Shown here: one piece after another, positions 4,863 to 19,694 of the stretch
Layout: the number at the start of each line of letters is the position of its first letter
How positions within the stretch are numbered: the first letter of the stretch is position 1
Assembly: GCA_016215705.1 (NCBI GenBank)
Contig: JACRIR010000226.1
Span: 1-20,353 of the forward strand
Origin: Candidatus Poribacteria bacterium
GTDB taxonomy: Bacteria; Abyssobacteria; SURF-5
Direction: 5' to 3'
DNA length: 20,353 nt
The notes under the pieces: model-generated
What the model saw: the letters and a program-made list of their open reading frames with translations, nothing else
What the model was told of the DNA's origin: nothing
Database searches by the model: none
Position numbers and translations under genes: made by a program

Positions 4863-5282
4863 TCAAGCTACTTTCTTCAGTAAAGCGTCCACCTTCTTGT
4901 CGAGGGCAGCAATATCCTCGCGTGTCGGTATGTTGAACAGATGGAGAACGCGGAGAAGCCATTCTTCCTTAGGCTCTCCCTTCTTCTCGGCCTTCACGGG
5001 CCTGTCGGTCTTCTTTTCGGCCTTCTTTTCCGCCTTCTTGAAAATGTCCGAGCCGTTCTCGATCAGTTTCTTGAAGTATTTCCGACCGGCCTTGCGGGTC
5101 TTTTCTCCTCTCTTTGTCAGCGAACTGATAAGATCGGAAAATTGATCCTCCGCGAGCGAGAGCGCTCCGACGGACATAAGCAACGGACGCCTCAAGACGC
5201 CGGCGGCGTCGAATCTCCCGTTGCCCTTCGCGCGGTCGGCCTTTACGGCCTTCTTCACGACTTTCTTCGTTGCCAAGTGCAT
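4863..5282 (-). CDS. Phasin-like (PHA granule-associated type) protein
   Basis: Phasins coat polyhydroxyalkanoate granules, and PhaF/PhaI-like members carry a C-terminal coiled coil. This 139-residue protein has a basic N-terminus, the phasin-like segment RRPLLMSVGALSLAEDQFSD (about 32-51), a Lys/Glu-rich linker with repeated KKAEKK (about 80-105), and a C-terminal oligomerisation helix containing IPTREDIAALDKKVDALLKK. The ATG at 5282 lies only three bases after AGGAGG. An in-frame TTG at 5276 (giving MATKKVVKKA, a typical start for this type) has a better 9-base spacing and may be the true start. It has its own promoter and terminator. No PHA synthase or depolymerase is in the window, so a PHA role is inferred from family only. 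A general coiled-coil or DNA-associated role is possible. Confidence 0.72.
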   Translation of the reverse strand: MHLATKKVVKKAVKADRAKGNGRFDAAGVLRRPLLMSVGALSLAEDQFSDLISSLTKRGEKTRKAGRKYFKKLIENGSDIFKKAEKKAEKKTDRPVKAEKKGEPKEEWLLRVLHLFNIPTREDIAALDKKVDALLKKVA

Positions 5283-8859: not shown

Positions 8860-9107
8860 GATAAACCATTAATCGCCCGCATCGCCCATCCATTTCACCC
8901 CATTTCATGCCTTCGGCCATTCCAAACAGCCATCGCTTCTGATAAATGCCATATTAGAGACTGCCCGGTAATTCTGTAAGTGCGAGTTTGTTCGCCTCTC
9001 CTCATTTTACATCCTCATATCTCTGTGTCAGAGTTGTTTCAAGAACATAGGCGAGTGAAATCGGAACTCGCGCGGCAGGGTAGGGATCGAAAAGAAAGGA
9101 TTCTACT

Positions 9108-9455
9108 ATGGCGATTGAAGGCGACAAGGTCTACACATGCACCACATGCGGCAGGGTCTCAAGCCAAAAGGGTCACCTGTGCTCGCCCGCGGATGAGCAA
9201 TATGTGTGCGAATTTTGCGGCGCCGAATCAGTGGACCCAAGGCACGTCTGTTTTCCGAAAGTCGAGAAGCTTCGCTATGTCTGCGAAACCTGCGGGCGCG
9301 TAGCCGTCAGCAGCTCTCACGTGTGCGCGCCGAGGGCCATCGAGGGAAGCCCGCCGACAAAGAAAACAAAAGCCAAACCTGCAAAAGCGAAAAAGAGCGC
9401 GAAGAAAACCAAAAAGGCCTCGGGCAAGGCTGCAAAGAAAAAAGCGAAAAAGTAA
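9108..9455 (+). CDS. Small protein with three CxxC-x8-HxC modules and a lysine-rich tail
   Basis: I do not recognise a named family. The 115-residue protein contains three modules with identical spacing, C-x2-C-x8-H-x-C: C11/C14/H23/C25, C34/C37/H46/C48 and C59/C62/H71/C73. Each is a probable zinc site, and each has Gly after or near the second Cys. Residues 84-115 are almost entirely Lys, Ala, Thr and Ser (KAKKSAKKTKKASGKAAKKK), like histone H1-type tails that bind nucleic acid. There is no signal peptide, so it should be cytoplasmic. AAAGGA lies eight bases before the ATG. It has an intrinsic terminator (9489-9517). The 248 bases upstream show no clear promoter. A nucleic-acid-binding or ribosome-associated role is inferred from composition only. 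Confidence 0.8.
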   Translation: MAIEGDKVYTCTTCGRVSSQKGHLCSPADEQYVCEFCGAESVDPRHVCFPKVEKLRYVCETCGRVAVSSSHVCAPRAIEGSPPTKKTKAKPAKAKKSAKKTKKASGKAAKKKAKK

Positions 9456-9488: not shown

Positions 9489-9517
9489 AGGCGAGGGCCT
9501 GTGGCTCTCGCCTTTTC
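9489..9517 (+). terminator. Intrinsic terminator of the zinc-module gene
   Basis: AGGCGAG (9489-9495) pairs with CTCGCCT (9507-9513) around an 11-nt loop and is followed by TTTTC. It lies 34 bases after the stop codon. Its end touches the next palindrome. Confidence 0.75.
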
Positions 9518-9563
9518 TCATAATTCGGGGACACGATGTGGCATCGTGTCCCCGAATTATGAG
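9517..9563. repeat. Perfect 22-3-22 palindrome, second family member
   Basis: Arms 9517-9538 and 9542-9563 are perfectly complementary over 22 bp with a 3-nt loop. The core ATTCGGGGACACGATG differs from that at 2890-2936 at two positions of 16. It lies between two convergent 3' ends (the zinc-module gene and the bifunctional-nuclease-family gene). Confidence 0.9.
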
Positions 9564-9606
9564 GAACAATCGCAGTGGCTAACCTCGCTGCGCGCGAACT
9601 CATCTT

Positions 9607-14694: not shown

Positions 14695-14877
14695 CTACAC
14701 CGAGACCAGACAGATTCCGTCGGCGCGGCGTTCTTTGAGCCTTTTGGCAAGGTCGAGGTATTTCTCGTGGATCAGTTTCCTGTCGTATTTCCAGCACTGC
14801 TCCAGCATCTCCGCCCGCTCGTCATCGTTCAGGTAGTCCATCGAAGCGTAATAAAACCGCTCCTCTGAGCCATCCAT
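14695..14877 (-). pseudogene. Short coding remnant next to a tandem repeat
   Basis: The 60-residue reading frame looks like real protein: an acidic then basic helical segment MDYLNDDERAEMLEQ, then WKYDRKLIHEKYLDLAKRLK, ending RRADGICLVSV. I do not recognise the family. The first residues and the ATG at 14877 come from the 21-bp repeat array, which also supplies an in-frame TGA just upstream. There is no ribosome-binding site for the first ATG, nor a well-spaced one for the internal ATG at 14841 (GAGGAG is 17 bases away). The simplest reading is the 3' end of a gene whose 5' part was displaced by the repeat. A genuine 48-residue small protein is possible. Confidence 0.4.
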
Positions 14878-14968
14878 TTGTCATTCTGAGCCATCCATTT
14901 GTCATTCTGAGCCATTCATTGTCATCCTGAGCCATCCATTTGTCATTCTGAGCCATCCATTTGTCATT
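14865..14968. repeat. 21-bp tandem array, five units
   Basis: Units of CTGAGCCATCCATTTGTCATT-type sequence (21 bp) start at 14865, 14886, 14907, 14927 and 14948. Four are identical. The third is 20 bp and has two substitutions. The array runs directly into the left arm of the MITE-like core at 14963, whose GTCATTCTGAG is part of the same unit. Confidence 0.9.
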
Positions 14969-15101
14969 CTGAGCGAAGCGAAGAATCTCTGTTATAGGTC
15001 GCAAATTTGCAGGAAAACGAGAGATTCTTCGTCGCTTCGCTCCTCAGAATGACAATCCTGGCAACACTATGAAGCGCAGCTTCATCTGGGCAACAGGCCG
15101 T
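14963..15101. mobile_element. MITE-like palindromic element, copy 2 (GTCATTCTGAGCGAAGCG family)
   Basis: This 139-bp core matches 2062-2197 nearly base for base: the left arm GTCATTCTGAGCGAAGCGA, the AGGTCGCAAATTTGCAGGAA centre, the right arm ending CTCAGAATGAC, and the outer end GGGCAACAGGCCGT. The outer left end seen in copy 1 is absent. The 21-bp array is in its place. Confidence 0.85.
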
Positions 15102-15390: not shown

Positions 15391-15550
15391 CCTAAATAAC
15401 ATAGCATTGATACTGCAATGTTCCCCCCCTTGCAAAGGGGGGTAAGGGGGGATTTAAGACTCTTGTTCCCAATGTCTTCTGCGACTTTCTTGAATCCCCC
15501 CTTTTCAAAGGAGGAGCTTTGCAACAAGAATCAGGCAACACCCTACTTAG
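15391..15550. repeat. C-rich inverted-repeat element (MITE-like), copy B
   Basis: It contains the same blocks as copy A at 1-125: CCCCCCCTTGCAAAGGGGGG, then AAGGGGGGATTTAAGACTCT, a CTGCGACTT centre, and AATCCCCCCTTTTCAAAGG. The outer ends CCTAAATAA (15391) and TACTTAGG (15543-15550) are inverted and are also seen at the right end of copy A. The element ends one base before the stop codon of the minus-strand gene at 15552, so its hairpins form that gene's 3' UTR. Confidence 0.75.
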
Positions 15551-17288: not shown

Positions 17289-19694
17289 TTATCGCCCTTT
17301 CCCCAGACAGCACTTCTTGTATTTCTTGCCGCTGCCGCACGGGCACGGGTCGTTGCGCCCGACATCTCGACGGGTTTCTTTTGAGAAGAAGGATATTTGC
17401 TGCTGCGGGAGATTCTCGATGTGCAGTCTGTCGCGAATCCGGTTGTAAACTTCCACAAAATGTTTAACGAATTCTTTCGGTGTTATGCGATCAAGCCGGT
17501 AGTAGCGCCACGCATCCTTGCGTCGTAGTGATTCATTCATGATATCGAAGGCGCAATCCATCTCACCTCTCTCCATGTGGATCTTGGCGAGCGATACGGC
17601 GGCTTCAGGGCAAGTTTTGTCCAAATCGAAACACCTGCGGTAGCATTCTTCAGCCTTCCTTGTCCGCCTGACATTCAAGTAGGTATTTCCCAAGGCGATG
17701 AGATCGACGACGCTGCCGGGGTCCTCTTCCAGCGCCCGACGATGATATTCAATGATTTCCCGGAAGAACATCGGGCGTCCGTCAACCAGTCGCGACTCCA
17801 CAAACTTAATCGGGCTCTCCACTTCTTTATCCTTCATTATTGCGCCAGTGATCCTCATTGCTTCTGCGGAAAGCACGGCGAACGATTTTTCTGTCAGCTC
17901 AAATTCCGCTTCCGGTTGTTTCCCGCATGATGAGCACGTTATCTCCTCCGAGATGAAAGGCGCCGCGCCTTGTCGTTTGGGGTCAACATAAACTTCCTTC
18001 ACGTCGTAGATATTGAGGTCACCGCACAGGGGGCATCGGAGTTCAATGCGTATATTCTCTTCAAACACGTCGTCGAATGGCCCCGCTTCCGTCCTTTGTC
18101 GCACATACTCGCGATTCTCTTCCACCCTTGCTCGCGCAGAAATTAGTGAAGGATGGAACACATCCAGTAGCGCGCACAGAACGGTGAATGCCTCGTCTAT
18201 GACAGGATGTTTCCGTCTGACGTCAGGCTCGAGGACTTCGACGAGCCGGATATCAGGCACGCACATTGCCATGTCGCACCACGGGTCCAAATCGGCGTTT
18301 CTCATCTCAGGATATGCATTGACCAGAAACCGAACAGTTCTCTCTCCCCCCACCTTGCCAAGAATTCTCATGCCGTATATTCGCTGCGAGTCATCGAGTT
18401 CTTTCCAACGCGCGATAATCTCCGTTTCCGCGGCAGGTCCCATCTTGCACAGCGATTTGTCGGCCTCTTCGCAAACGAAGTCCGCTTTGTCATTGCAAAG
18501 AAGATTCACAAGCGTCGGAACGAAGTCGTTCCATCCAAGGGCGCCCATTATCCGGACAAGATGAGCTTCGCCATATGTGTTCGATGTCTTCGGAAGGCAA
18601 TTGTTCATGTGCGAAACGATGGCGCCCTTCGGGAATCTCTTGATGTTGGCGATGATCTCGTCATACCCATTGCCGGGAAAGGACCTGATGTCCCAAGACG
18701 CCACGTCGAACAACTCGCTCAGTGATAATTGCGACCAGTCGAACGCTTCGCGCACATAACAGGCCGCAGTCACGGCGAGCATGAATTGAGCGATTATGTC
18801 CTGGTTTCCTTGTCTGATCTCTCGTTCCTTGTTCTTGTATACTGACACCAGCGCTGACTGCAAGGGCCTCCGTCTCGGTTCGGGCACAGCGCTCAGCAAT
18901 TCCGACGCCGCTCTGATCTTTTCTCTGCTTGCAAGGCGAATGGCGCGGTCCAGTTGATCCAAAGGCGCTTCATCGCAGAAAAACCTCGAAAGTGATCCAA
19001 ACGACTGATGCGTCGAACCGGACCCACTTTCCGTAAGCATCTCGAAGAACGGAAGACGGTCAAAGGTGACGCGATAGACCGGTTGCAGCGTACCATCGAT
19101 TGACTCTGTTTCAAAAGGACCAGTCATCAATTCTGCCAGTAGATCGCTGAACACAGGCAGGGCATGGACCGAAGCGACCGCAATCATAGTTGGCAGCAAC
19201 AGATCATGAACAAGCGGGTTTTTTCTTGCCCGGACAGCATCAATCACTCTGGATGCAGGCGCCTTCCAACGCGCGTCCTTGGATTTCAGCAGAGCTTGAA
19301 AGACGCCGAGCAATTTGTCGGTATCGTGACGCGCATAGACTGACTCAATGCATTTATTGAGAAGAGATTCCGCCCTTTCCGGGGCAATCTCTGCGAGCGC
19401 AATCATCGAAGTGCCGGCGAGGGTTCCTGTCCAATGCGGCCATTGTTCGGCAATAAGCGGCGCTGCAATCCTCAGGCGCTCCAGCGATACGTAAAGGAGT
19501 ACTCCAGACAGAATGGCGTGGTCGTCAATGCAAACGAGACGCTGAATCGTCTCATCATCAAAGACCATTCTCTCAAACTCCTCGATGTCCGGCGCCCAGC
19601 CCCTCTTGTCCGAGAGTCTGTCAATAGCCCATTGAGCAACGATCGGGTCCTGCATCTTCTTATGAATGTCTTTGATTCTCATCATCATGCTCAT
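17289..19694 (-). CDS. Large HEAT-like / zinc-ribbon / TPR / SEC-C protein
   Basis: The function is unknown; domains point to a cytoplasmic scaffold. In the 801-residue protein, residues 1-500 are helical with HEAT-like repeats, clearest at 375-465 (VRIMGALGWNDFVPTLVNLL, then IYGMRILGKVGGERTVRFLV). A zinc ribbon has C554-x2-C557 and C587-x2-C590. TPR-like helices cover about 645-730 (IALGNTYLNVRRTRKAEECY, then AKIHMERGEMDCAFDIM). A SEC-C zinc motif closes the protein (781-797: NDPCPCGSGKKYKKCCL, with C784, C786, C795, C796), as in the SecA tail that binds SecB and ribosomes. Many other proteins carry SEC-C without SecA function. ATG 19694 has GGAG six bases upstream. The minus-strand TTGACA at 19724-19729 has no matching -10. 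Confidence 0.85.
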   Translation of the reverse strand: MSMMMRIKDIHKKMQDPIVAQWAIDRLSDKRGWAPDIEEFERMVFDDETIQRLVCIDDHAILSGVLLYVSLERLRIAAPLIAEQWPHWTGTLAGTSMIALAEIAPERAESLLNKCIESVYARHDTDKLLGVFQALLKSKDARWKAPASRVIDAVRARKNPLVHDLLLPTMIAVASVHALPVFSDLLAELMTGPFETESIDGTLQPVYRVTFDRLPFFEMLTESGSGSTHQSFGSLSRFFCDEAPLDQLDRAIRLASREKIRAASELLSAVPEPRRRPLQSALVSVYKNKEREIRQGNQDIIAQFMLAVTAACYVREAFDWSQLSLSELFDVASWDIRSFPGNGYDEIIANIKRFPKGAIVSHMNNCLPKTSNTYGEAHLVRIMGALGWNDFVPTLVNLLCNDKADFVCEEADKSLCKMGPAAETEIIARWKELDDSQRIYGMRILGKVGGERTVRFLVNAYPEMRNADLDPWCDMAMCVPDIRLVEVLEPDVRRKHPVIDEAFTVLCALLDVFHPSLISARARVEENREYVRQRTEAGPFDDVFEENIRIELRCPLCGDLNIYDVKEVYVDPKRQGAAPFISEEITCSSCGKQPEAEFELTEKSFAVLSAEAMRITGAIMKDKEVESPIKFVESRLVDGRPMFFREIIEYHRRALEEDPGSVVDLIALGNTYLNVRRTRKAEECYRRCFDLDKTCPEAAVSLAKIHMERGEMDCAFDIMNESLRRKDAWRYYRLDRITPKEFVKHFVEVYNRIRDRLHIENLPQQQISFFSKETRRDVGRNDPCPCGSGKKYKKCCLGKGR

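Follow-up and report, generated by a model that had tools for sequence, protein, structure and literature searches.

A protein with three CxxC/HxC modules and a lysine-rich tail represents a widespread, uncharacterised bacterial family

A short open reading frame in a 20,353-nt stretch of DNA from a Candidatus Poribacteria bacterium (contig JACRIR010000226.1; the whole stretch is called the window here) encodes a protein in which one Cys/His motif occurs three times, followed by a C-terminal tail rich in lysine and alanine. What kind of protein this is, and whether its tail is essential to it, are the questions raised by the locus. A first-pass annotation of the DNA had read the product as possibly a zinc-dependent nucleoid or RNA-binding protein. 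The features concerned are:

9095..9100, +: AAAGGA 7 nt upstream of the ATG, a probable ribosome-binding site
9108..9455, +: open reading frame (115 aa) for the triple C-x2-C-x8-H-x-C protein with C-terminal Lys/Ala tail
9132..9188, +: module 1, residues 9-27, YTCTTCGRVSSQKGHLCSP
9201..9257, +: module 2, residues 32-50, YVCEFCGAESVDPRHVCFP
9276..9332, +: module 3, residues 57-75, YVCETCGRVAVSSSHVCAP; its His71 is not a conserved family position
9345..9452, +: Lys/Ala-rich tail, residues 80-115, with 17 K, 8 A and no D/E; predicted disordered
9489..9513, +: terminator-like hairpin 3' of the gene, 11 bp stem, T-rich 3' side (consensus match only)

The gene and its surroundings

The translation of 9108-9455 (+) is MAIEGDKVYTCTTCGRVSSQKGHLCSPADEQYVCEFCGAESVDPRHVCFPKVEKLRYVCETCGRVAVSSSHVCAPRAIEGSPPTKKTKAKPAKAKKSAKKTKKASGKAAKKKAKK. 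Its closest homolog, 62% identical, is encoded on contig QZKI01000144.1 of Candidatus Abyssobacteria bacterium SURF_17, which belongs to the same family as the window's genome. Over 113 codons the two genes differ at 33 first, 20 second and 77 third positions. This excess at third positions points to purifying selection on the protein; no dN/dS value is given because synonymous sites are saturated. Judged from these codon-position differences, 9108-9455 is a real gene, and an artefactual reading frame was rejected. A TolC-like gene precedes the finger gene in both genomes, and the one in the window belongs to PF02321. A profile search of the window genome found no convincing paralog, and the finger protein had no match in a third genome of the same family (G001). 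The product is probably a small cytoplasmic protein.

Several other elements of the window were recorded. Directly downstream of the finger gene, 9514-9566 contains a 25-nt near-perfect inverted repeat, TTTCTCATAATTCGGGGACACGATG, which may be a REP-like element, and a similar palindrome, GCGGATATTCGGAGACACCATGC, lies at 2890-2936. Another palindrome, CCCCCCTTTGCAAAGGGGGG, is present three times with a conserved flank (5-48, 269-312 and 15424-15467). Repeat blocks based on TTTGTCATTCTGAGC are shared by 2035-2197 and 14864-15101; they include a tandem array of a 21-nt unit (about five copies, 14864-14974) and two 109-nt copies that are 91% identical. A Lys-rich phasin-like protein encoded at 4863-5282 (-) (PF05597, E 4.5e-10) suggests polyhydroxyalkanoate granules in this lineage. 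The gene at 17289-19694 (-) encodes a protein of about 800 aa whose C-terminus carries a SEC-C metal-binding motif (PF02810, E 8.6e-10); its TPR matches are below threshold.

Three copies of one module

The motifs read C11TTC14-x8-H23LC25, C34EFC37-x8-H46VC48 and C59ETC62-x8-H71VC73, spanning 63 residues from C11 to C73; C25 and C34 are separated by 8 residues, C48 and C59 by 10. The translation confirms the three exact C-x2-C-x8-H-x-C motifs and the linkers of eight and ten residues described in the first-pass annotation. That geometry is exact, but the true repeat unit is longer: it is a frame of 19 residues, Y-x-C-x2-C-G-x7-H-x-C-x-P, with a Tyr two positions before the first Cys and a Pro two after the last. 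Shuffle tests support tandem repetition of one module, as had been proposed. Pairs of modules have 4, 6 and 7 identities at 15 non-ligand positions, a total (17/45) reached in none of 100,000 within-module shuffles, and shuffling the whole protein 200,000 times never produced three such motifs. The six frames of the window contain no further C-x2-C-x8-[HC]-x-C. The modules are identical to each other at just 26-33 of 57 nucleotides, so their duplication is not recent. With 9 K/R and 10 D/E, the finger region (residues 1-79) is not basic.

Distribution of the three-module family

A single-protein scan of genome contigs returned no homologs. Of 386 genomes searched by profile, 20 had matches; the strong matches were mostly three-module proteins and the weak ones included one-module relatives. 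A degenerate DNA pattern for module 1 matched at least 119 stretches, about 104 of them three-module proteins, counts that represent a sample in which CxTCG...HLCxP is favoured. In total, about 105 three-module homologs were assembled. By the NCBI labels of their metagenome bins, which are rough, their hosts belong to Desulfobacterota, Nitrospirota, Nitrospinota, Omnitrophota, Riflebacteria, Ozemobacter, Hebobacteria, Planctomycetota (including the Brocadiales Brocadia, Kuenenia and Scalindua) and others. Many of the named hosts are sulfate reducers, anammox bacteria or members of other lineages known as anaerobic. No three-module match was found in phage and plasmid records. Eight pattern matches were set aside as not being members: L146 (a viral contig), L060, L071, L081, L107, L116, L121 and L145.

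The family signature consists of two CxxCG-x7-HxC modules followed by CxxCGR-x9-C-x-P, in about 65 residues, and the window protein carries it. The family profile detects the window locus with an E-value of 1.9e-32, the window protein itself being a row of that profile. The finger regions of the window protein and of the scanned homologs score below every curated cut-off in Pfam, NCBIfam and PHROGs, in line with the first-pass annotation, which had named no family, and no description of the three-module family was found in open-access text. The three-finger proteins are a widespread uncharacterised family, not a new kind of system. Their core has been kept across many phyla, anammox and sulfate-reducing bacteria among them, and is without a Pfam or NCBIfam model; naming the family would annotate a recurrent hypothetical protein.

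Ligand conservation and the third module

Ten positions (C11, C14, H23, C25, C37, H46, C48, C59, C62 and C73) are identical in all 82 aligned homologs and C34 in 81. G15 and G63 are likewise invariant (82/82), R64 is kept in 81 and P75 in 79. The invariance of module 1 is partly forced by the search pattern; the 11 homologs found independently of it, by profile and protein searches, also have the C-C-H-C sets of modules 1 and 2 intact. In module 3, only 9 of the 82 homologs have His71 (15 of 104 in the wider set, among the matches listed). Since most homologs lack it, the family signature is CCHC-CCHC-CC(x)C. Eleven of the twelve metal ligands originally proposed are thus at or near invariance and His71 is the exception; three identical CCHC modules are true of the window protein, but not of the family.

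Module 3 has relatives among unnamed one-finger proteins of 50-75 aa (L154, L165, L166, L167, L168 and L172). Their signature is C-x~24-C-x2-C-[GA]-R-x8-L-C-x-P, with a C-x2-C-x10-C core and an LCxP ending. A profile-profile comparison that aligns them to module 3 of the three-finger family (probability 97.3%, E 2.6e-11, 45 columns) indicates that they are homologous, and CxxCGRxA...LCxP is common to both. Unlike the three-module proteins, the one-finger proteins have a single module and, in place of the His, an invariant Cys some 24 residues upstream; they have no long Lys tail and are likewise not in Pfam. Because this family has an upstream Cys and aligns to module 3, it raises an alternative partition of the ligands, in which C48 would complete a site with C59, C62 and C73, as against pairing inside modules.

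The lysine tail is optional

The Lys/Ala-rich composition noted at first reading stands; the tail is 36 residues long rather than about 30. Its low pLDDT in the AlphaFold2 model (47-58) goes with the predicted disorder. The window and SURF_17 proteins are 50% identical in the tail and 67% in the fingers; between these two Abyssobacteria genomes the tail retains its charge better than its sequence.

Among the 104 homologs listed, 37 have a K/R-rich extension (N-terminal in 18, C-terminal in 15, at both ends in 4) and 67 have none; the call follows a simple composition rule, and borderline proteins such as L029 and L112 shift the count by a few. That they occur at one end, the other or both means that they were gained or lost several times. 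At least 7-8 changes are needed on the finger tree, which is poorly resolved (74 columns). The extension is optional and mobile, and by its distribution the lysine tail is a recurrent add-on. A basic tail as a family trait is not borne out, being absent in 67 of 104 and variable in position. No homolog encountered lacks the Cys/His positions as well as the tail: the Cys/His positions are kept and only the tail may be absent. Homologs with and without tails, and with tails at either end, offer a natural comparison for the role of a lysine tail in a small bacterial zinc protein.

Predicted structure

Two AlphaFold2 models, of the full and the trimmed protein, agree in placing beta-hairpins on the CxxC motifs, a helix over residues 49-54 and strands over 57-59 and 75-77. 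In the trimmed model pLDDT is 84-93 over residues 31-80 (modules 2-3) and 57-72 over module 1. Fold searches returned weak matches to C2H2 arrays, at best E 0.025 (Foldseek) and Z 2.3 (VIA-align), and no significant match to a nucleic-acid-binding protein. Matches this weak do not argue for a new fold.

Gene neighbourhood and fusions

Gene-neighbour clustering at the 104 loci listed revealed no partner common to the family, and the neighbours gave no pointer to replication, transcription or translation. Inspection by eye within four genes found rubrerythrin-like genes near 8 of the 104, oxoacid:ferredoxin oxidoreductase subunits near 7 and ferredoxin-like genes near 5, in few clades. A same-strand neighbour lies within 60 nt of 36 of the 104 genes, so the family is not strictly monocistronic.

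The three-finger domain is fused to Hsp20 in Riflebacteria (L088:538-1098 (-); PF00011, E 4e-23) and to dodecin in L013 (genome G231; PF07311, E 1.7e-14). At two Omnitrophota loci a ferredoxin domain lies upstream, in frame with the fingers; a strong ribosome-binding site before an internal ATG makes a separate start possible.

Possible role

Tentatively, the protein is best read as a finger array stabilised by zinc, to which an optional cationic tail adds nucleic-acid affinity; a protein adaptor ranks next, and a redox or zinc-buffering protein after it. Each 19-residue module would fold as a CxxC-bearing beta-hairpin, and the H-x-C that follows would close the site to make a short finger. 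Modules 2 and 3 are predicted to pack as one unit, with module 1 attached more loosely. The array would then be a rigid docking surface, and in the window lineage the disordered tail would raise, through long-range electrostatics, the affinity for a polyanion, DNA or RNA being the likeliest. Ligand conservation is the support for zinc as the metal. Nucleic acid is proposed as the partner mainly because histone-H1-like lysine repeats in bacterial TopA, Ku and HupB aid or stabilise the binding of DNA (PMC7398561); a cationic extension that recurs independently of position is what would be expected of an affinity enhancer, and the tail's better retention of charge than of sequence agrees with such a role. 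The fingers themselves are non-basic and 67 of the 104 homologs listed have no basic extension, which argues against a nucleic-acid partner, as do the fold searches and the uninformative neighbours. The interpretation in the first-pass annotation is upheld in part: the modules, eleven ligands and lack of a named family stand, the tail and the third His fall as family traits, and the binding of zinc and of nucleic acid is inferred.

The Hsp20 and dodecin fusions fit a role at the protein level as well or better. Both are oligomeric proteins, and the fingers might dock a protein partner, with the tail adding only a weak electrostatic pull, on acidic proteins, polyphosphate or RNA-rich condensates. 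Such an adaptor agrees with the non-basic fingers and the tail-less majority; it is somewhat unlikely, given that strong cationic extensions recur and that no conserved neighbour gene presents itself as a partner.

A thiol redox sensor or zinc buffer, whose Cys would lose their metal or become disulfide-bonded when anaerobes meet oxidative stress, is less likely again. Eleven conserved Cys/His in about 65 residues, the many anaerobic hosts (sulfate reducers, anammox bacteria and others), the rubrerythrin-like and ferredoxin-like genes near 8 and 5 of the 104 loci listed, and the ferredoxin domain in frame at two Omnitrophota loci (where a separate start of the fingers is possible) all speak for it. 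However, those gene associations are limited to a few clades and such genes are common in anaerobes, and the strict H-x-C and CxxCG geometry exceeds what a buffer needs. That at least one site holds iron, cobalt, nickel, an Fe-S cluster or nothing is improbable: module 3 has just three conserved Cys in most homologs and 5 of 14 purified archaeal C(P)XCG proteins were zinc-free (PMC11241148), but modules 1 and 2 have the full C-C-H-C sets typical of structural zinc.

A broader extension of the zinc-finger and nucleic-acid reading is doubtful: the family would be an undescribed, widespread class of small zinc-dependent nucleic-acid-organising proteins from mostly anaerobic bacteria. Histone-like lysine tails would have been added repeatedly to its three-finger core, at one end or the other, and in most members module 3 would have three Cys and an open metal site.

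Comparison with known systems

There is some likeness to classical C2H2 fingers (PF00096), with a weak match at the CxxCG hairpin, a tandem array and a presumed zinc-stabilised hairpin; PRDM9 and Aart arrays are weak profile matches as well. The spacing differs, being C-x2-4-C-x12-H-x3-5-H in PF00096 (classically C-x2-C-x12-H-x3-H) and C-x2-C-x8-H-x-C here, and the score of 19.1 bits (E 0.0017) is below the 25.2-bit cut-off, so membership was rejected. The models have no long recognition helix, the linker is not TGEKP and the best structural Z is 2.3. A check for a beta-beta-alpha fold found predicted hairpins and 3-residue helices inside the modules, with weak matches (Foldseek E 0.025 and 0.15, Z 2.0-2.3).

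HVO_2753-like archaeal proteins (PF07754) are also small and stand-alone, with CxxCG zinc knuckles. They have C(P)XCG knuckles (PMC11241148) and are not known to carry a basic tail, in contrast to the CxxC...H-x-C modules here, and membership was rejected at 15.7 bits against a cut-off of 33.2. For archaeal small proteins of this kind, AlphaFold2 could not predict metal binding (PMC11241148). RCKP-type rubredoxin-like proteins (NF045720, cut-off 45 bits) were rejected too: the best homolog scored 22.5 and the window protein was unmatched at E <= 10.

Histone-H1-like DNA-binding proteins (NF038053, cut-off 80 bits) gave no match to the window protein at E <= 10, and one Lys-tailed homolog scored 11.1 bits, the similarity being of tail composition alone. 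The lysine-repeat tails of TopA, Ku and HupB resemble the window tail in composition and offer a functional analogy for DNA affinity (PMC7398561). Here, by contrast, the lysine tail is carried by an unrelated finger array, to which it is an optional addition at either end.
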